A stretch of DNA of 64,000 nt from positions 3,906,001 to 3,970,000 of the forward strand of contig NZ_CP014007.2 of the NCBI RefSeq assembly GCF_001658025.2, given 5' to 3'. A program made the position numbers and the translations under genes. Below are positions 3,988 through 64,000 of the stretch, piece after piece. Numbering within the stretch: position 1 is the first letter of the stretch; every line of letters begins with the position of its first letter. The notes beneath the pieces were generated by a model. The model made no database searches and was not told the origin of the DNA. It saw only the letters and a program-made list of their open reading frames with translations. Origin of the DNA: Kosakonia oryzae (lineage in GTDB: Bacteria > Pseudomonadota > Gammaproteobacteria > Enterobacterales > Enterobacteriaceae).

Positions 3988-4596
3988 ATGTGGTTAAAAC
4001 AATGGGGTAACGCGCTCGCAGGGTGCGTCGCCCTGTTGCTCACGGCCTGCACCGTGGTGGATCTGGATGAGAACGGCAAGCCGATTATGCCTGCCGATCC
4101 GCATGCCAAAGCCAGCTTTGACAACCAGACGCCGCAGCAGATCGCGCAACAAACCTGGCAGGAACGCGTGATCAACGCCGCGCATCAACATGCGCTGAGC
4201 GCCGACACGCTGGCCGCCCAACAAAAAAACCCGGCCGCCGCGCCGCAGAGCGTATTTGTCCGGCTGACAAGCCAGGTCGAACGCATTGATACCAGTAATG
4301 AACGCGAACAACAGTTGCTGATTAACGTTAACGGGCAACCGCTGCCGGTGCAGCTTGGCCCGGTAATACGCGGTAACGCAATTCGCGATGCTACCGGTTT
4401 TAAATTTGAAGACTTTACCAACCAGGTCCAGTTTGCGCAGCTTTCCCGCGCCTATAACCGTGAAGCAGTAAAACATCTGCCAAAAGTTGACGCCAGCTGG
4501 GCCGGAAAACCGGTCACCGTACTGATGGCGGTCACGCTCAGCGGCGGCAAGCTTAATGACGCCGTGGCACTGGAGTTGCAACAGGAGGCACAGTAA
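3988..4596 (+). CDS. DUF2291-family lipoprotein of a sugar ABC operon
   Basis: This is a 202-residue predicted lipoprotein. The N-terminus has a hydrophobic stretch ending in the lipobox LLTAC, with the acylated Cys at residue 21, followed by a hydrophilic exported domain. The C-terminal part contains GNAIRDATGFKFEDFTNQVQFAQLSRAYN, typical of the DUF2291 family as I recall it; members occur beside RbsA/B/C-like transporters. Its biochemical role is unknown. The gene starts 12 bp after the binding protein and its stop overlaps the ATPase start by one base, so it is translationally coupled and probably an accessory part of this transporter. The family assignment is less certain than those of its neighbours. 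Confidence 0.65.
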   Translation: MWLKQWGNALAGCVALLLTACTVVDLDENGKPIMPADPHAKASFDNQTPQQIAQQTWQERVINAAHQHALSADTLAAQQKNPAAAPQSVFVRLTSQVERIDTSNEREQQLLINVNGQPLPVQLGPVIRGNAIRDATGFKFEDFTNQVQFAQLSRAYNREAVKHLPKVDASWAGKPVTVLMAVTLSGGKLNDAVALELQQEAQ

Positions 4597-56265: not shown

Positions 56266-57780
56266 TTATTTCTTCACCGTATCTTCGAGGAAAAAGCGAC
56301 CGAGCGGATTCTGATAGAAACCTTCGATATTTTTCCGGCTCACATTGCGGTACGGGCTGTAGTAGAGGTCGATCCAGTTCACATCGGCTTTGGCCATTTT
56401 TTGCAGATCGATATACATCTGTTCGCGTTTTTTCGGATCCATTTCCACGCGAGCCGCAGCGACCAGCGCTTTCACCTTGTCATTCTTATAACGCGTCATG
56501 TAGTTCATGTTCGCATCGTGGCCCAGCACAAAGGTGGTTTTCTGATCCGGGTCGAGAATATCGTTGGTCCAGTACATCACCGAAATATCGTATTCGCCCG
56601 CCACCAGCATGTCCCAGCTCTGGCTGGGGTCAACTTTTTGTAGGTTCACCTTCACACCCGCTTTCGCCAGTTGCTGTTGCAGCAGAATGGCGATCTGCTC
56701 ATCCACTTCATCCCCGGCGTTAACCACATAATTCAGCGTTAAATCGGAGGCGCCGGCGGCTTTCAGCATCTGTTTGGCTTTTTCCGGATCGTAGGCGCGG
56801 CGCAGGTTATCGCTGTAGTGATACAGCGCGCCAGCCGGAATATAGGAGTTCGCCACCTGGCCGTAGCCAAAGGTCACGGTCTTCACAATCGCATCTTTGT
56901 CGATGGCGAAGTCCAGCGCCTGGCGCACTTCCACTTTACCGAGCGCACCGTGCGAGTGGTTGATCAACAGATGATCTTCACGGGTTGATGGATCCAGCTC
57001 CACCTTCAGATTGCTGTCTTTTTGCAGTGATGCAATGCGCGAGAACGGCACCGTCAGCGCGGCATCCAGCTCACCGGCCTGCACTTTCAGCATGCGGGTG
57101 TTGTCATCGGGAATAGTCAGCCAGTCCACTTCGTCGAGGCTGACGTTCTTCGCCTGCCAGAAGTTCGGGTTCTTCACCAGCACGATTTTCTCGCCGCGCA
57201 CCCACTCTTTCACGCTAAACGCGCCAGAACCGACCGGTTTTTCGGCAAACGTCTCTGCTCCTTCGTCCTTCAGCGCTTTTTCCGAGATCACCGACGCATT
57301 CGGCAATGCCAGTTGTGACAGGAACGGCGCAGACGGCGATTTCAGCGTGACGACCAGCGTGCGCGCATCCGGCGCTTCGGCTTTGTCGATAATGCTGTAC
57401 GAATCGCGCCACAATGAACCGGCATCATCACGAATACGCAGCAGGCTGAACGCGGCATCGCTGGCGCTCACCGGCGTACCGTCGGAGAATTTAGTGTCGC
57501 GAATTTTAAAGGTATAGACCTTGCCGTCCGGTGAAATGCTCCAGCTTTCCGCCACGCCCGGCTCCAGTTTGGTGCCGGTTTTATCCACCCGCACCAGCGG
57601 ATCAAAGACGTTGGAAAACACCCAGTTGTCGGCGTTTTGCGCCGATTTGATCGGGTCGAACGTGGTGCTGTCTTCGCGACGGCCAATGGTTAATACGCCT
57701 GCCGCCTGCGCCATTTCGCTGACCACACTGAGCGCCAGAAAAACGCTGGCCGCCAACAACTTAACATGCCTGTGCTTCAT
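56266..57780 (-). CDS. Oligopeptide-type periplasmic binding protein of the PipR-linked transporter
   Basis: This 504-residue family 5 solute-binding protein (OppA/DppA group) has a signal peptide ending in SEMAQA before AGVLTIGRREDSTTFDPIKS. The VAESWSISPDGKVYTFKIRDTKFSDGTPV and AYDPEKAKQMLKAAGA segments are family signatures. The ATG at 57780 has AGGAG eight bases upstream and lies 20 bp inside the preceding ATPase gene; a TTG one codon earlier is possible. It is the last gene of an operon divergent from a LuxR solo, so it may bind the plant-derived compound sensed by that regulator, or a precursor. Confidence 0.87.
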   Translation of the reverse strand: MKHRHVKLLAASVFLALSVVSEMAQAAGVLTIGRREDSTTFDPIKSAQNADNWVFSNVFDPLVRVDKTGTKLEPGVAESWSISPDGKVYTFKIRDTKFSDGTPVSASDAAFSLLRIRDDAGSLWRDSYSIIDKAEAPDARTLVVTLKSPSAPFLSQLALPNASVISEKALKDEGAETFAEKPVGSGAFSVKEWVRGEKIVLVKNPNFWQAKNVSLDEVDWLTIPDDNTRMLKVQAGELDAALTVPFSRIASLQKDSNLKVELDPSTREDHLLINHSHGALGKVEVRQALDFAIDKDAIVKTVTFGYGQVANSYIPAGALYHYSDNLRRAYDPEKAKQMLKAAGASDLTLNYVVNAGDEVDEQIAILLQQQLAKAGVKVNLQKVDPSQSWDMLVAGEYDISVMYWTNDILDPDQKTTFVLGHDANMNYMTRYKNDKVKALVAAARVEMDPKKREQMYIDLQKMAKADVNWIDLYYSPYRNVSRKNIEGFYQNPLGRFFLEDTVKK

Positions 57781-58798
57781 CAAAAGATCTCCTGGTTAAA
57801 GGAAAAACAGTCTCATCACCTGTATGGGTCAACACACAGGAATATGCGTGATCGGCAATCTGCCGGGTTGGAGGTAACGCGCCGGTACGACACTGCACCT
57901 GCGCATAGGGGCAGCGCGGATGGAAAGCGCAACCCTGTGGAATGGATAACGGGCTGGGCGGTTCACCGCCGAGCGGCTCCGCAGGCAGCGGTTTATCGGG
58001 ATCGATTTCCGGGATCGCCGCCACCAGCGCGGCGGTATAAGGATGGCGCGGCTGCGTGAACACCGCTTCGGACGGGCCTTCTTCGACAATGCGCCCGAGG
58101 TACATCACCGCCACGCGATCGCACAGGCGGCGCACAATCGCCAGATCGTGCGCGATAAACAAAATCGCCAGCCCCATCTTTTCGCGCAGTTCCATCAGCA
58201 GGTTGACGATCTGCCCCTGAATGGAGACATCCAGCGCCGCCACGCACTCATCCGCCACAATCAAGCGGGGTTCGATCGCCAGCGCGCGCGCAATTCCGGC
58301 ACGCTGGCACTGCCCGCCGCTAAGCTGGCCGGGGAGGGCCTTCGCTTGCTCCGGGCGCAGCCCGACTAACGTCAGCAATTCAGCCACTCGCGCATTCACA
58401 CCGCTGCGCGGCACTTTCTGATGCACGCGCAGTACTTCCGCAATGCTGTCGCCGATGGTCTGGCGCGGATTAAGTGAGGCGAAAGGATCCTGGAAAATCA
58501 TCGCCGTTTGTAGGCGCAACCGCGCCACGTCACTCTTCAGCCCATGAGTAATGCGGTGACCATCGAAGCGCACCTCGCCCGCCGTCACCCGCTCCAGCTG
58601 CAATAACGCCCGTCCCAGCGTGCTTTTGCCGCTGCCGGATTCGCCCACCAGGCCGAGGGTTTCCCCGGCGTGAATTTTCAGTGTGACATCATTAACGGCG
58701 TGCACCACCCGCCTGGCGCCTGGCAGGCCGCCGGAAACCGGAAAGGTCACGCTGACATTGTCCGCCTCTAACAGGGGCCAGTTTGCTGATGTCGTCAT
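57761..58798 (-). CDS. Oligopeptide-type ABC transporter ATPase, OppF-like
   Basis: This 345-residue ATPase has Walker [11 protein letters not shown]-loop [13 protein letters not shown], signature LSGGQCQRA and Walker [13 protein letters not shown]. Two deviations from the norm are visible: the signature carries Cys where Arg is usual, and Walker B reads DECVAALD instead of DEPTSALD. Both are unusual, but catalytic Glu is retained. The C-terminal [15 protein letters not shown] motif of the oligopeptide ATPase extension is present. Its start overlaps the OppD-like stop by 4 bp. Confidence 0.88.
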
Positions 58799-59778
58799 GC
58801 GCCCTCCCGCAGGCTAAGTGGTTGTAATGCGTGATGACAGGCCGCCGCATGCGCCAGCGTGTCGCGTCCCTGCCGCAGCGCAGGCTGTTGCTGACAAGCC
58901 GCGCTGGCGTACTGGCAACGAGGATGAAAGCGGCAACCGGCCGGGAAGTTATCTGCCACCGGCGGCTGGCCGCTGATAGTCACCAGACGCCCCTGCCCGC
59001 CTTCGCTGGCCGGCTGGCAATCGATTAATCCACGGGTGTAAGGATGCAGCGGCTGCGCCAGCACATCGCGCTTGCCGCCCACTTCGCACAGCCGCCCGCC
59101 GTACATGACGGCGATGCGATCGCAGGTTTGCGCCACCACGCCGAGATCGTGGGTGATCATGATCACCGCCAGCCCCAGTTGCTGACGCAAGTCGCTGAGC
59201 AGACGCAGGATCTGCATCTGCACGGTGACATCCAGCGCGGTGGTTGGCTCGTCGGCAATCAGCAGCGACGGCTCCGGTGCCAGCGCCACGGCGATCATCG
59301 CGCGCTGGCGCATGCCGCCGGAAAATTCATGCGGATAGTTATGAACGCGGTTTTGCGGATCGGGAATACCCACCTGGCGCAGCAGTTCTTTAGCATCTTC
59401 CCGCGCCTGCGCGCGGCTGGCGCCGAAATGACGGCGACGGCTTTCGGCAATTTGCTCGCCAATGGTCATCACCGGGTTGAGGTGGCTGGCCGGGTTCTGG
59501 AAAATCATCCCCATTTCGCGACCGCGCACCGCCGACATTTGCGCTTCGCTGAGCGCCAGTAAATCACGGCCACCCAGCCGCACTTCGCCGCCGGTAATGG
59601 CTAACCCCTGGCCGGGCAACAGCCGCATCAACGCGCGGCAGGTCACGGTTTTCCCGGAGCCGCTCTCGCCGACCAGGCCGAGCATCTCTCCGGCACTCAA
59701 CGTAAATGAGACCTTATCGACCAGCGCGATATCCGGCTCGCGGGTAATGGTCAGTTCTGAGACGGTCAGCAGGGTCAT
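58795..59778 (-). CDS. Oligopeptide-type ABC transporter ATPase, OppD-like
   Basis: This 327-residue ATPase has Walker [11 protein letters not shown]-loop [13 protein letters not shown], signature FSGGMRQRA and Walker [13 protein letters not shown]. The C-terminal extension carries [15 protein letters not shown], the cysteine-rich oligopeptide ATPase motif that in this family can hold an Fe-S cluster. Length matches OppD/DppD. It overlaps both neighbours by 4 bp, so the operon is translationally coupled. Confidence 0.9.
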
Positions 59779-60620
59779 ACGCGCGCTCCCAGTTTATCGC
59801 CGAGGCCATCGGCCAGTAGGCTAAAGCCCATCGCCAGCAGCACAATCGCCAGCCCCGGAAAGGTGGTTATCCACCACGCGGTGGTGATAAAGCTCTGCCC
59901 CTCCGCCACCATCACGCCCCACTCCGCCGTGGGCGGCTGCACGCCCAGCCCAAGATAGCTGACCGCCGCGCCGTTCAGCAGCACCAGCACGCAGTCGGAC
60001 ATGGAGAACACCAGCGCGCCAGTAATGGCGTTTGGCAACAGATGGCGGAACAGGATGCGCGCGTGGCCGTAGCCAAGGCTGCGTGCCGCAACAATAAAAT
60101 CCCGCTGTTTTAACGTCAGTACCTGCGCCCGCACCAGTCGGGCGTAAGAGACCCAGCCAACCATCGCCATCGCAATATAGAAGCTGCCCAGTCCCGGCCC
60201 GAGGATGGCGATGATCGCCAGCATCAGTACCAGAAAAGGAAACGCCAGCACGATGTCGATCAATCGCATAATGGCCGCATCTACCACGCCGCCGAGATAG
60301 CCGGACAGCGCGCCGAGCGTGGTGCCGAGCAAAAACGGGAAGATAACCCCCAACAGGCAGATTTGCAGATCCACCCGCGCGCCCCACAGCACGCGCGAGA
60401 AGATATCGCGACCAAAGTTATCGGTACCGAACAGATGCGCGCCGCCAGGGGGAAGCAGGCTTGATGTGGCATCCTGCGTAATGGGATCAAACGGTGCCAA
60501 CCACGGAACAAACAGGGCGATAAACAGCCACAGACCAACAATCACTATCCCGGCGCGCAGCGCATGCTGGCGTGGGATCGCCCGGCGGCGTAACCCGGAA
60601 ATCACGCTGAGAGCACTCAT
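59775..60620 (-). CDS. Oligopeptide-type ABC transporter permease, DppC-like
   Basis: This 281-residue inner-membrane permease has the DppC hallmark PFDPITQDATSSLLPPGGAHLFGTDNFGRDIFSRVLWG after the first membrane helix. The coupling loop RDFIVAARSLGYGHARILFRHLLPN and the [12 protein letters not shown] end are also typical. It overlaps the DppB-like gene by 4 bp upstream and the OppD-like gene by 4 bp downstream. Confidence 0.9.
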   Translation of the reverse strand: MSALSVISGLRRRAIPRQHALRAGIVIVGLWLFIALFVPWLAPFDPITQDATSSLLPPGGAHLFGTDNFGRDIFSRVLWGARVDLQICLLGVIFPFLLGTTLGALSGYLGGVVDAAIMRLIDIVLAFPFLVLMLAIIAILGPGLGSFYIAMAMVGWVSYARLVRAQVLTLKQRDFIVAARSLGYGHARILFRHLLPNAITGALVFSMSDCVLVLLNGAAVSYLGLGVQPPTAEWGVMVAEGQSFITTAWWITTFPGLAIVLLAMGFSLLADGLGDKLGARV

Positions 60621-61555
60621 AATTTCACCCTCGGATCCAGCGCCACGGTCAGCACATCGGCCAGCAGGTTGACGACCACGGTCGCCAACGCAAACACCAT
60701 CACCACGCCCTGCACCACCATGTAGTCGCGGCTAAAAATCGCTTTCACCAGCAACTGGCCCAGCCCCGGAATGGCGAACACGCTCTCAATCACTACCGTG
60801 CTGCCAATCAGCCAGCCAATATTCACCGCCAGCAGGTTTAGCGTCGGCACCAGTGAGTTGGGCAGCACATGACGCCAGAAGATACGGTTTTCGCGCTGAC
60901 CTCGCGCCCTGGCCGCTACCACGTAATCACTGCTCATCTCCATCAGCAGGCTGGCGCGCAGGTTGCGAATCAATACCGCCGACAATGCCAGCGCGACCGT
61001 CAGACACGGCAGCACCATATGGTGCAGTTGGTCGGCAAAATCGCTGCCGTAACCGGAGACCGGGAACCAACCGAGCACCACGCTAAAAATGATGATCATC
61101 ATGATGCCGAGCCAGAACGCCGGAAACCCTAACCCGGCGGTGGTGAACAGACGGATCAGTTGATCCGCCGCCCGCCCGCGCTGCCGCGCCGCCAGCGAGG
61201 CCAGCGGAACGGTGAGGATCACCGCCAGCAGCACGCTGCCCAGCACCAGCCACAATGTCGGTTCGAGCCGCGAGTTAATCAGCTTCAGGGTATCGACGCG
61301 GTAGACAATCGATTTGCCCAGCTCCCCCTGCAATAAATTGCGCAGGAAGTAGCCGTACTGCACCCATAACGGTTCATCGAGACCAAACTGCGCACGGATA
61401 CGCGCCAGCGCCTCTGGCGTACTGCGCACGCCGAGCAGAATGCGCGCCGGATCGCCGGGGATCGCCCGTACCATCGCGAAGGTGATGATGCTGATCCCAA
61501 GCAGTACGGGCAGCAATTGCAAGGGTCGAAATAACAGAAAACGGTAACGATGCAT
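60617..61555 (-). CDS. Oligopeptide-type ABC transporter permease, DppB-like, first gene of the operon
   Basis: This 312-residue inner-membrane permease of the DppB group opens with LQLLPVLLGISIITFAMVRAIPGDPARILLG and contains the LGLDEPL-like FGLDEPLWVQYGYFLRNLLQGELGKS segment. The coupling loop is DYVVAARARGQRENRIFWRHVLPN. The ATG at 61555 follows GGGAG. Longer in-frame starts upstream would add residues without a membrane helix. It is promoter-proximal, and a lux-type box lies about 140 bp upstream, in the region shared with the LuxR solo gene. Confidence 0.88.
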   Translation of the reverse strand: MHRYRFLLFRPLQLLPVLLGISIITFAMVRAIPGDPARILLGVRSTPEALARIRAQFGLDEPLWVQYGYFLRNLLQGELGKSIVYRVDTLKLINSRLEPTLWLVLGSVLLAVILTVPLASLAARQRGRAADQLIRLFTTAGLGFPAFWLGIMMIIIFSVVLGWFPVSGYGSDFADQLHHMVLPCLTVALALSAVLIRNLRASLLMEMSSDYVVAARARGQRENRIFWRHVLPNSLVPTLNLLAVNIGWLIGSTVVIESVFAIPGLGQLLVKAIFSRDYMVVQGVVMVFALATVVVNLLADVLTVALDPRVKL

Positions 61556-61694
61556 CAGCGAACTCCCATGGTGCATACGGTGGTAAAAGTTAAAAAATCG
61601 CTCCACCGTAGTGCAGCCCTGCGTCATAAATTTGCGCCCGGTCAGCCTTAGCGGGCGTTTTCTTTACGCTAACGGCATCACTCAGGGCTGGGTA

Positions 61695-61712
61695 GTTAGC
61701 AAAAATACTAGT
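61695..61712. promoter_or_regulatory. lux-type box in the divergent transporter/luxR region
   Basis: GTTAGCAAAAATACTAGT agrees with the reverse complement of the box at 62578-62595 in 15 of 18 positions. It lies about 140 bp from the transporter start and 110 bp from the luxR start, where a LuxR-type activator would work. Confidence 0.65.
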
Positions 61713-61822
61713 TTTACCTTTCTCGCAGGACGGCACCGGAATTGCATGCTTTGGCGAAGCCATGGGGAAATTGCACAAACCGTGCCCGTGGCATGGCACC
61801 GTTTACCTTGGGGGAGTTCATT

Positions 61823-62575
61823 ATGCGCATTGATATCGAAAGCCCTGGTGCAACCAACGCCACCAGGCTTGCAGAGGCTTTTGCCGGGCTGTTTGCCCGG
61901 ACGCAGGCGTTGGGTTTTGATGCGGTAATTTACGACTACACGCCGGTGCCGCGTTCGCTGGAAGGTGCGCTGATTACGCCATCGCTGCTGGAGATGCGCA
62001 ATGTGCCGGATGATATGCGCAGGCTGTGGTGCGAGCGTGGCTACTATCAGGTCGATCCGGTTCAACATTTTGCGCTGGAGAGTTGCGCGCCGTTTGTCTG
62101 GTCTTATCAACGCCCGGATCGCAGCGCATTGCAGGGGCGACTGGATGAGAACGCGCAAGAAGTGACGCACTACATGCGCGATAACAATATGCCCTGCGGC
62201 GCCACCGTGCCGCTGCATCTGCCCAATGGCGGTTTTGTCACGCTAACCGGCATTGTGACCGACCAGCGGGAAGAGCGGGATATCAGCGAAACGCTGGCGC
62301 AATTAACCTTTCTGGCGCACCGCTTTCAGGAGTCGGCGTTTCCGCTGTTTGACGCCTCAATGCTTACCTGTCGCCATGTCAAACTGAGTAACCGCGAGCG
62401 TGAATGTCTGGCGTGGTCCGCCGAAGGGCTGACGGCGAAAGAGATTGCCCGCAAGCTGCACCGCTCAGTTGCGACTGTTACGCTGCATCTGAACACGGCG
62501 GCGAAAAAGCTCGGTGCGACCAACCGCGTGCAGGCTGTTGTCCGGGCGTTGCATTACCGTTTGCTGGACAGTTAA
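61823..62575 (+). CDS. pipR: LuxR solo of the plant-responsive PipR/OryR/PsoR subfamily
   Basis: This 250-residue regulator has an autoinducer-binding domain (about residues 15-165) and a LuxR helix-turn-helix (LSNRERECLAWSAEGLTAKEIARKLHRSVATVTLHL, about 185-220). At a constant offset of 8 from the TraR/LuxR numbering, the invariant W57 and Y61 are Met65 and Trp69, while D70, P71 and W85 are kept (Asp78, Pro79, Trp93). W57M with Y61W is the known mark of solos that answer plant compounds instead of acyl-homoserine lactones. No luxI gene is in the window. The start at 61823 follows GGGGGAG. The flanking ABC transporter and iminopeptidase match the PipR locus. Confidence 0.88.
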   Translation: MRIDIESPGATNATRLAEAFAGLFARTQALGFDAVIYDYTPVPRSLEGALITPSLLEMRNVPDDMRRLWCERGYYQVDPVQHFALESCAPFVWSYQRPDRSALQGRLDENAQEVTHYMRDNNMPCGATVPLHLPNGGFVTLTGIVTDQREERDISETLAQLTFLAHRFQESAFPLFDASMLTCRHVKLSNRERECLAWSAEGLTAKEIARKLHRSVATVTLHLNTAAKKLGATNRVQAVVRALHYRLLDS

Positions 62576-62577
62576 GA

Positions 62578-62595
62578 ACTAGCATTTTTGCTAGT
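62578..62595. promoter_or_regulatory. lux-type box upstream of the iminopeptidase gene
   Basis: ACTAGCA-TTTT-TGCTAGT is a perfect 18-bp inverted repeat starting three bases after the luxR stop and 65 bp before the hydrolase start, the expected activator position. Confidence 0.75.
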
Positions 62596-62659
62596 GTTCA
62601 GCGTAAGCAGTGACGTTCTAACCTGAAAGCCAGTTCACTTAACAGGGTAAACGTCACTC

Positions 62660-63553
62660 ATGTACACCATTCGAGAAGGCTATGTCCCCTTCCGGGGATA
62701 TCAGACCTGGTTTCGCATCTGCGGCGATCTGCACAACGGCCAGACGCCGTTGGTGGTTGCGCACGGTGGCCCCGGCTGCACTCACGATTATGTCGATGCG
62801 TTCAAAGATATCGCCGAAACCGGGCGCGCCGTGATCCACTACGATCAATTGGGTAACGGACGTTCCACCCATCTGCCGGAGAAAAGCCCCGATTTCTGGC
62901 AGCCTTCGCTATTTCTCGACGAACTGAATCATCTGCTGCAGGCGCTGGAGATTGCCGACAACTACGCGCTGTTGGGGCAATCGTGGGGTGGAATGCTGGC
63001 GGCAGAACATGCAGTCACTCAGCCGCAAGGGTTGAAAGCGATGATTATCGCCAACTCACCGGCTTCAATGGCGCTGTGGCTGGAAGGCGCGGCGAAACTG
63101 CGCGCGCAGCTTCCGCCTGACGTGCAGCAGACGCTGCTGGCGCACGAAGCGGCAGGCACATTGGATAGCGCGGAATACAAAGCGGCCAGCCAGGTGTTTT
63201 ACCAGCGCCACGTCTGCCGTCTCGATCCCTGGCCGCCGGAAGTTCAGCGCACCTTTGATGCGATGGATGCCGATCCGACGGTGTACCACGCAATGAACGG
63301 CCCAACAGAATTCCACGTGATCGGCAGCATGAAAGAGTGGACGATTATCGACCGTCTGCCACAGGTGCGCGTACCGACATTACTGATTTCCGGGCGCTAT
63401 GACGAAGCCACACCAGAAGTGGTGCAACCGTTTATGGATCATATTACCGGCGCACAATGGGTGATTTTCGAATCCTCCAGCCATATGCCCCATGTCGAAG
63501 AGCGGTCGTTGTGCATGCAGACCGTCAGTGATTTTTTGGCGAAAACCTGTTGA
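62660..63553 (+). CDS. pip: Proline-iminopeptidase-like alpha/beta hydrolase (PipA type)
   Basis: This 297-residue cytoplasmic alpha/beta hydrolase belongs to the prolyl aminopeptidase/tricorn-interacting F1 group. HGGPGC (residues 35-40) forms the oxyanion region, GQSWGG (106-111) holds nucleophile Ser108, and Asp248 (GRYDEATPE) and His275 (SSSHMPH) complete the triad. In plant-associated Pseudomonas and Xanthomonas, a gene of this kind next to an OryR/PipR-type regulator is its main target; in the PipR case it hydrolyses an amide-type plant signal or peptide. The lux box just upstream supports direct activation. Substrate here is unproven. Confidence 0.87.
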
Positions 63554-63592
63554 TTCTCAGCCCACACCAGGTGGATTGTGTTTGTGGTTTTT

Positions 63593-63617
63593 AAGCGCCG
63601 GCGAGGCGCTTTTTTTG
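63593..63617 (+). terminator. Terminator after the iminopeptidase gene
   Basis: AAGCGCC (63593-63599) pairs with GGCGCTT (63605-63611) with a five-base loop and a run of seven T, a strong intrinsic terminator that also borders the convergent partial gene. Confidence 0.88.
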
Positions 63618-63647
63618 TGCCTGCCTGCGGGCGAGCAACACCAGGCA

Positions 63648-64000
63648 TTAACGGCACATCTCGGGTGCGCTACCGATACGCATCGCTGAATAGAGCGAAC
63701 AGAGCGCCTGCAAGCTCTTGGTGCCGGTACGTTTCATCAGGCTGTTGCGCTGCACGCTAACGGTGGTCGGGCTGACGCCGCGTATCCGCGCGATATCCTC
63801 CACTGAATGCCCGCGCAGCAGCAAGCGCATAATTTGCTGCTCGGCGCTGGTGAACTTAAAGGCGCCATGAATATAGCCGGGCTGCTGGTTTTGCTGACAA
63901 AGCAGGATCATCACTTCCAGTGCCTGGCGCAGCTCATGTACGTGAACATCTTCTGCAAGGCAGAGTTTCACCAGCCCAGGGAAAAGTAGCGTCAGTGAAT
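63648..64000 (-). CDS. LuxR/FixJ-type transcriptional regulator, N-terminal part outside the window
   Basis: The minus-strand frame is open to the right edge, so only the last 116 or so residues are seen. The C-terminal helix-turn-helix is FTSAEQQIMRLLLRGHSVEDIARIRGVSPTTVSVQRNSLMKRTGTKSLQALCSLY. The visible part of the preceding region (LFPGLVKLCLAEDVHVHELRQALEVMILLC) resembles the end of a BglJ/RcsA-like pseudo-receiver more than an autoinducer domain. A GTG at 63971 is in frame but probably internal. Function cannot be assigned. Confidence 0.75.
   Translation of the reverse strand, partial: SLTLLFPGLVKLCLAEDVHVHELRQALEVMILLCQQNQQPGYIHGAFKFTSAEQQIMRLLLRGHSVEDIARIRGVSPTTVSVQRNSLMKRTGTKSLQALCSLYSAMRIGSAPEMCR

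Follow-up and report, generated by a model that had tools for sequence, protein, structure and literature searches.

The psrR locus of Kosakonia, which comprises the gene of a LuxR-type receptor (PsrR), an adjoining pip gene for a proline iminopeptidase-family hydrolase and a divergent oligopeptide-type ATP-binding cassette (ABC) importer, occupies positions 56266-63553 of a 64,000-nucleotide stretch of contig NZ_CP014007.2 from Kosakonia oryzae, referred to below as the window. The locus was already published in Kosakonia sp. KO348 (Mosquito et al. 2020, PMC7301841); what we say of published work refers to the excerpts of the respective papers that were available. Our analysis adds to the available parts of that report two conserved lux-type boxes, a likely sigma-54 promoter of psrR and a possible hairpin in the pip leader, with no literature search aimed at such a hairpin in this class of systems. 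PsrR of the window shares 98-99% identity with its counterparts in K. arachidis, K. sacchari and K. oryziphila, which identifies the genome as Kosakonia. The genes form two divergent units, the plus strand carrying psrR-pip and the minus strand the five importer genes:

61823..62575, plus strand: psrR, LuxR solo of the PAB type (PF03472 and PF00196; clade support 100/100)
62660..63553, plus strand: pip, proline iminopeptidase-family hydrolase (TIGR01250, 271.7 bits, cut-off 167.65; structure 7a6g, E 1.4e-139), beginning 84 bp downstream of psrR
60617..61555, minus strand: permease of the OppB/NikB type (by domain search; the reading frame opens at 61627)
59775..60620, minus strand: permease of the OppC/NikC type (BPD_transp_1 and OppC_N)
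58795..59778, minus strand: ATP-binding subunit of the OppD/DppD type (ABC_tran and oligo_HPY)
57761..58798, minus strand: ATP-binding subunit of the OppF/DppF type (ABC_tran and oligo_HPY)
56266..57783, minus strand: periplasmic solute-binding protein of the importer, AapF type (PF00496, E 4.8e-100)

A preliminary description of this DNA had recognised both the five-gene oligopeptide-type transporter, running from 61627 down to 56266, and the prolyl-iminopeptidase-like hydrolase directly downstream of the regulator, and both assignments hold, the hydrolase scoring above the curated family cut-off. For the OppB-type permease, ATG 61555, which is preceded by the Shine-Dalgarno sequence GGGAG as read from the sequence, is a likelier start than 61627; intact homologues from outside Kosakonia align across 93-96% of the long form. 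The binding protein, encoded by the last gene of the importer unit, has as its best structural matches AapF of the PipR system (PDB 7kz8 and 7kz9; E 5.2e-231 for 7kz8), the next structure following at E 3.4e-53. In Enterobacter sp. EA-1 (L025), whose promoter DNA is near that of a Kosakonia, the importer genes are in frame-shifted pieces, reflecting poor assembly or decay.

PsrR contains an autoinducer-binding domain (Autoind_bind, PF03472, 88.1 bits) and a LuxR-type helix-turn-helix domain (GerE, PF00196, 59.3 bits), both above cut-off. In an alignment with RhlR, Met65 and Trp69 occupy the positions of W57 and Y61, and D78-P79 and W93 (equivalent to D70-P71 and W85) are retained, as the preliminary description had stated; the same positions were displayed across a set of 58 loci made up of the window, 39 named loci, L066, 11 further Kosakonia loci and 6 plasmid loci. 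This set covers 46 Enterobacterales, 7 Pseudomonas and 5 alphaproteobacterial loci, and species such as those of Kosakonia recur in it, so its rows are not independent. Martelella is the name of an alphaproteobacterial genus. The locus recorded as Martelella alba (L014) was placed among the Enterobacterales in our counts despite this name, which is doubtful: its PsrR is 82% identical to that of the window and its boxes are of the enteric type. In a tree of 28 proteins, PsrR and 19 other PAB-type regulators form one clade with 100/100 support. The SdiA/LoxR protein of the same genome, four acyl-homoserine lactone (AHL)-type receptors encoded beside LuxI or at most two genes from it and three other LuxR proteins all lie outside this clade, several of these outgroup branches being long. 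PsrR has the two domains, the W57M/Y61W substitutions, the D70, P71 and W85 residues, the clade position and the adjoining pip of a PAB LuxR solo, and by sequence it is a member of the PAB (OryR/PipR/PsrR) clade, which excludes SdiA and the AHL receptors, so that the phylogenetic check bears out the proposed PipR/OryR-type regulator. A single Trabulsiella guamensis genome holds two psrR-pip copies (L023 and L024); in L024 the D70 position is occupied by Asn, against Asp in the other 57 aligned loci, and no importer box is recognisable.

Each of the two units is preceded by a lux-type box and a predicted -10 hexamer:

62578..62595, plus strand: lux-type box of the pip promoter, ACTAGCATTTTTGCTAGT, conserved across relatives
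62617..62622, plus strand: predicted -10 (TCTAAC) for PsrR-dependent transcription of pip; in most relatives about 39 nt separate it from the box start
61695..61712, minus strand: lux-type box of the divergent importer promoter, ACTAGTATTTTTGCTAAC, identical to the pip box at 15 of 18 positions and decayed in Trabulsiella
61666..61671, minus strand: predicted importer -10 (TAGCGT), at a similar distance from the divergent box in relatives

The two boxes, already described as near-identical, are paired in all 12 psrR-bearing genomes among the 15 Kosakonia genomes searched (the window's own counted) and in none of the 3 without psrR. The degenerate 16-mer CTAGYAWTTTTRCTAR matches without mismatch at exactly two sites in each of the 12, both in the psrR locus, and nowhere in the other 3; by our estimate, made for equal base frequencies, about 0.04 matches per genome are expected by chance. 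The pip box is self-complementary at 14 and the importer box at 8 of 18 positions. With one mismatch allowed, CTAGYAWTTTTRCTAR gives 4 matches in the window's own genome against 7 for a reversed-pattern control and, because the control is the commoner, we claim no further PsrR targets. Sites with two or three mismatches exist and were rejected as extra regulon members, the genus search showing no third zero-mismatch site; the sole one-mismatch match in a psrR-less genome (G396) is surrounded by unrelated reading frames and was likewise discarded.

Across the 46 Enterobacterales loci, the pip box keeps 13-18 of 18 positions (16-18 in Kosakonia, Klebsiella, Phytobacter, Mangrovibacter and Trabulsiella, 13-15 in Brenneria, Rahnella, Lonsdalea and similar loci) and the importer box 13-16, except in Trabulsiella. 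In the four loci of this genus, the importer box is reduced to 12, 12, 12 and at most 10 matching positions, with the pip box still at 16-17. No importer binding protein was found at E<=1e-60 in any of 3 Trabulsiella genomes, with a match in both positive-control genomes. The two Trabulsiella proteins in the tree adjoin Kosakonia and are nested among importer bearers, and because of this placement we conclude that the importer was lost, probably in one event. As far as sequences can tell, Trabulsiella is a natural test in which, of the two boxes, only that of the lost importer decayed.

The -10-like hexamer of pip is T[CT]TA[AC]C-like in most enterics, CTATGG in P. syringae-type loci and [CT]TATCG in other Pseudomonas loci; that of the importer is TAGCGT in most enterics and TAGGGT in P. 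syringae-type loci. At both promoters the distance between box and hexamer is roughly fixed, and this spacing is that of LuxR-type class II promoters. The box pair, confined to the locus, has the look of the self-contained circuit proposed earlier. Judging from this comparison, both are real conserved footprints, and they differ from the lux boxes proposed in PMC7301841, which we rejected as dyads: the one for pip is self-complementary at only 8 of 20 positions, and that for psrR does not occur in the window.

The 84-bp gap between psrR and pip contains no terminator-like site and pip is followed by one, so that read-through from psrR into pip is likely; the region 61500-63700 holds four such sites against 2.6 expected by chance, the other three lying in the psrR leader and gene. 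Within the gap lies an inverted repeat that, like the sigma-54-type site treated below, had been missed in the preliminary description:

62609..62625, plus strand: left arm of the predicted pip leader hairpin, overlapping the predicted -10
62643..62658, plus strand: right arm, holding the likely pip Shine-Dalgarno sequence AGGG (62644-62647)
63593..63620, plus strand: terminator-like hairpin and T run 3' of pip (stem 63593-63611 plus tail)

The outer arms of the repeat pair at -5.29 kcal/mol within a locus, compared to -3.27 kcal/mol across loci, a result reached by none of 20000 permutations of 33 distinct arm pairs and by 1 of 20000 in a 13-row subset that still includes related rows. The arm pairs were taken from the 51 of 88 loci with a CCTG/CAGG anchor, with L080, L138 and L150 anchored on the wrong copy. 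Folding was assessed in 83 of the 88 loci (five had no recognised pip start, and four Pseudomonas starts, at +57, were mis-called) and is significantly more stable than that of shuffled sequences (p<0.05) in 35 of 46 Enterobacterales and 8 of 36 Pseudomonas loci, the pip start of one of these 8 being mis-called, and not in the single alphaproteobacterial locus. For 26 chosen loci, one of them (L015) with a mis-set start, we also predicted accessibility. For the Shine-Dalgarno 5-mer of the read-through RNA, the unpaired share does not exceed 24% in 21 of the 26; it is higher in three P. syringae-type loci (37-49%), in L143 (35%) and in L022 of Trabulsiella (40%). When the RNA begins at the predicted pip start, the openness of the 5-mer rises in every one of the 26 (40% vs 21% in the window).

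This arrangement resembles the leaders of the T4 genes e, soc, 49 and I-TevI, in which a helix in the long read-through RNA hides the ribosome-binding site and a late promoter in the 5' strand of the helix yields an RNA that lacks it and is translated, as is spelled out for gene e and partly for I-TevI (PMC3014915, available parts). As in gene e, the pip hairpin pairs the Shine-Dalgarno sequence, the predicted -10 lies in the 5' strand and, with the exceptions noted here, the arms co-vary. The T4 cases differ in that they concern phage late genes and a phage sigma factor, whereas here a bacterial LuxR-activated gene would be controlled, by prediction only. Several observations speak against such a switch. 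The hairpin is non-significant in 11 of the 46 Enterobacterales loci (4 Lonsdalea, 3 Trabulsiella, L017, L027, L028 and L078) and significant in just the 8 Pseudomonas loci, being missing from P. syringae- and P. graminis-type loci except L130, and the 37 loci without anchor were left out of the covariation test. Three hairpin-less P. syringae-type loci also gain Shine-Dalgarno openness in the short RNA (0.03-0.19), and part of this effect is therefore non-specific. Furthermore, start-codon openness is predicted to drop in the short RNA in 10 of the 26 loci, among them the window (from 0.70 to 0.33), and to stay the same in 3.

The repeat before pip could also act at the DNA level, with no RNA switch at all, either as the operator of a second regulator or, as guessed in PMC7301841, whose putative box falls here, as another site for PsrR. 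We consider this unlikely, and of the alternatives it is the one that survives best: many loci retain the sequence of the inner part of the repeat, CCCTG...CAGGG, which overlaps the predicted -10, and predicted start-codon accessibility is not improved in the short RNA in half of the folded loci. Against it, the outer arms vary between clades and yet are complementary within a locus, as the strand of a folded RNA would be, and the right arm contains the likely Shine-Dalgarno sequence. The covariation is strong evidence; the hairpin switch itself is put forward as a hypothesis, and for a read-through lock by the pip leader we regard the case as evenly balanced.

Between the importer box and the start of psrR lie two further conserved elements:

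61731..61746, plus strand: predicted sigma-54 (-24/-12) promoter of psrR, CGGCACCGGAATTGCA, score 9.5 of 10.5, conserved in relatives
61771..61788, plus strand: conserved GCA-N7-TGCCCG element in the psrR leader, TTGCACAAACCGTGCCCG, found by alignment and, below 3 mismatches, without a second copy in the genome

The sigma-54 consensus is TGGCAC-N5-TTGCW. Candidate sites were given a fixed score against it, with a maximum of 10.5 and with GG and GC (GG-N10-GC) obligatory. Scores of at least 8.5 were found upstream of psrR in 42 of the 46 Enterobacterales loci and the full 10.5 in all 7 Pseudomonas loci of the 58-locus set. A wider search gave 67 Pseudomonas matches in 65 of 298 genomes, and among the best 30 of these 67, which were read (one, L127, being L040 again), 29 score at least 9 and the remaining one 7. 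When each upstream region was shuffled 200 times, the observed score was reached by 0-4 shuffles in 48 of the 49 positive loci, the exception being L013 (score 8.5; 7 of 200). The same scan of the psrR-pip gap gave nothing above 7, and in an alignment of 17 of the 30 Pseudomonas loci intergenic conservation is otherwise mostly that of the box, some flanking letters and letters near the start. The element TTGCACAAACCGTGCCCG is present between the predicted psrR start and the ATG in most aligned Enterobacterales and has no known match; it is possibly an operator or an RNA site.

Not all of the evidence points to sigma-54. The site is missing in all 4 Lonsdalea (scores 5.5-6) and all 5 alphaproteobacterial loci (5-7.5), and the window and most enterics have CGGCAC, one letter off TGGCAC. 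Genome-wide, YGGCAC-N5-TTGCW gives 19 matches against 10 for a reversed control, which is weak alone. NtrC was considered as the activator and set aside, since sites resembling TGCACCA-N3-TGGTGCA, scored in 23 chosen loci, are not conserved: the best scores, at differing places, are 11/14 in the window (reached by 0 of 100 shuffles), 11/14 in L007 (3 of 100) and 12/14 in L028 (1 of 100), and those of the other loci are at or near chance. Judged by search listings, no on-topic literature links OryR/PipR-type LuxR solos to RpoN. From the Lonsdalea and alphaproteobacterial loci, together with the failure of the NtrC-type scoring to identify an enhancer site in the 23 loci, it could be argued that the conserved -24/-12 block is no sigma-54 promoter and belongs instead to a leader element or to the site of a different regulator. 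This we hold to be improbable, given the exact or near-exact YGGCAY-N5-TTGC upstream of psrR or pipR in most enterics, Rahnella and Pseudomonas and the outcome of a simple scan of 61500-63700, which found no sigma-70-type site as an alternative (1.2 expected by chance). Judged on sequence grounds, psrR is probably transcribed from a sigma-54 promoter.

Among the 19 genome-wide matches, a likely downstream gene was located for 11, and 10 of the encoded proteins were checked in NCBIfam. Five of them passed a cut-off, namely glnK (PII), hypA, guanine deaminase, a urea-type ABC binding protein and an ethanolamine permease, four of these five being nitrogen genes; the other five passed none. An exact sigma-54-type site lies 56 nt upstream of the start of the ethanolamine permease gene (L171, C1:4198100 of the same genome; TIGR00908, above cut-off), which is of interest because the PipR ligand derives from ethanolamine. 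Inside the window, a perfect match, TGGCACTGGAGTTGCA, lies at 4565-4580, within an upstream reading frame and 31 nt before the start codon of a gene for a sugar-type ABC ATP-binding protein that falls below family cut-offs.

How far the system follows PipR of Pseudomonas sp. GM79 can be judged from gene content and pocket residues. The PipR/PipA/AapA-AapF system (PMC4981722, available parts) shares the PAB LuxR solo, the downstream pip, the AapF-type five-gene importer and lux-type inverted repeats, and Pseudomonas loci with W at both positions also bear the -24/-12 site, as the window does. It differs in having W/W, another pocket and a second peptidase, AapA. The position of AapA, a divergent Pip-like hydrolase between psrR and the importer, is filled in Klebsiella, Phytobacter, Mangrovibacter, Brenneria and several alphaproteobacterial loci and empty in the examined loci of Kosakonia, Lonsdalea, Rahnella and the P. 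syringae group. A Klebsiella AapA query at E<=1e-30 detected only Pip (35-37% identity) in 12 of the 15 Kosakonia genomes and had no match in 3. Because AapA is missing, the locus is not the complete PipR locus that the preliminary description had seen in it; the label PipR-type is only partly right, the pocket residues of PipR being absent. The window shares with KO348 PsrR all seven pocket residues compared (E, V, M, R, W, C and Q), and its E, V, M and R stand where PipR has K96, T100, W104 and H105, according to the available text of PMC7301841.

The expectation that the system would answer the PipR ligand or plant macerate finds no support in the KO348 data, in which pip was induced by neither rice-root macerate, ethanolamine nor HEHEAA (PMC7301841); PipR answers HEHEAA and the KO348 system did not (PMC7301841 and PMC10134790, available parts). 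We therefore judge it quite unlikely that the locus is a plain copy of the PipR system, with psrR expressed constitutively from an unseen sigma-70 promoter and PsrR answering imported HEHEAA or a close relative, as proposed earlier. The shared genes bar AapA, the AapF-type binding protein and the PAB clade would fit such a copy; the inactive compounds, a pocket that combines M/W with E and R where PipR has W, K and H, the absence of AapA in the genus and the lack of a sigma-70-type site in the scanned region do not. As for an AHL receptor or a broken relic, the LuxR superfamily membership of PsrR and nothing more speaks for it, and the tree position, the W57M/Y61W substitutions, the separate SdiA/LoxR gene found in a search of the same genome and the stop-free PsrR frame in all 12 bearers make it hardly credible.

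The closest described system is PsrR of KO348 itself, from the same genus, with psrR, pip and an Opp/Dpp-type importer, the M/W substitutions and five other pocket residues in common; other lux boxes were proposed there, and the available parts of that report do not mention the present boxes, the sigma-54 site or the hairpin. OryR, XccR and XocR of Xanthomonas and NesR of Sinorhizobium share the W57M/Y61W class, an adjoining pip and a pip box (PMC10134790, PMC4399327 and PMC3821632, in the parts available). In Xanthomonas, oryR has no linked ABC importer according to PMC4981722, unlike psrR in the window.

The locus is also mobile on plasmids. A PsrR relative (E<=1e-30) was found in 152 plasmid records, 123 of them from Rhizobium and 11 from Rahnella, and Klebsiella variicola L078 carries the entire locus plus a second Pip-like hydrolase on an IncFIB plasmid typed as conjugative, with insertion sequences close by, from a banana sheath rot source. 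Genome samples gave few matches, 2 of 394 class-wide (own included) and only its own of 369 order-wide. Beside pip in the window, a convergent frame at 63648-63998 on the minus strand runs to the window end and by eye encodes a LuxR-type helix-turn-helix.

The best explanation of these findings, and on sequence grounds a rather probable one, is that the Kosakonia psrR system is under two-key control. The first key would be sigma-54 RNA polymerase transcribing psrR from 61731-61746, so that PsrR is made only when an enhancer-binding protein, plausibly of the nitrogen-stress type, is active. The second, by family, would be a small amide- or peptide-like compound that the AapF-type transporter imports and that binds PsrR, which may then activate two sigma-70-type promoters via the boxes at 62578-62595 (pip) and 61695-61712 (importer). 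Import would amplify the response, and Pip would be expected to destroy the signal or a signal product. RNA reading through from psrR may be translationally mute, as the hairpin at 62609-62658 can hide the ribosome-binding site of pip, and RNA from the PsrR-dependent promoter would start past the left arm and be translatable. Comparative sequence evidence shows the gene content, the pocket residues, the boxes with their -10 spacing, the -24/-12 site and the co-varying hairpin, and the start sites, the activator, the ligand and all effects in vivo are inferred. By analogy to the GM79 model (PMC4981722, available parts), we are fairly confident of the outline, in which an imported ligand would activate PsrR, the importer and pip would be switched on and the ligand would be consumed.

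The published experiments on KO348 weigh against two-key control as they stand. The pip promoter had no PsrR-dependent activity, the compounds mentioned above failed to induce it, the 146-bp reporter covers the box and the -10 according to its primers, as placed by eye, and the poorer root-endosphere colonisation of the psrR mutant was not complemented (PMC7301841, available parts). The authors themselves considered poor psrR expression in their assay, and the negative reporter could be explained because a sigma-54 promoter may leave psrR silent in rich medium.

PAB LuxR solos are considered one of the principal ways in which bacteria perceive plants, and few of their ligands are established. 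The Kosakonia member looked dead in a published assay, and a sigma-54 promoter would be a concrete and cheap explanation; the corrected boxes show experimenters which DNA to assay. Tentatively, and with somewhat less conviction than for Kosakonia, the plant-signal LuxR solos of enterics and Pseudomonas may in general be two-key devices, with a receptor made by sigma-54, probably upon nitrogen limitation, and a peptidase insulated by a T4-lysozyme-like hairpin that carries the receptor's target promoter in its 5' strand. If true, such two-key control would explain the silent Kosakonia reporter and would predict that the signals are nitrogen-containing compounds for which the bacteria search under nitrogen shortage, and the hairpin, if it works as predicted, would be a phage-style read-through lock in a bacterial signal circuit.

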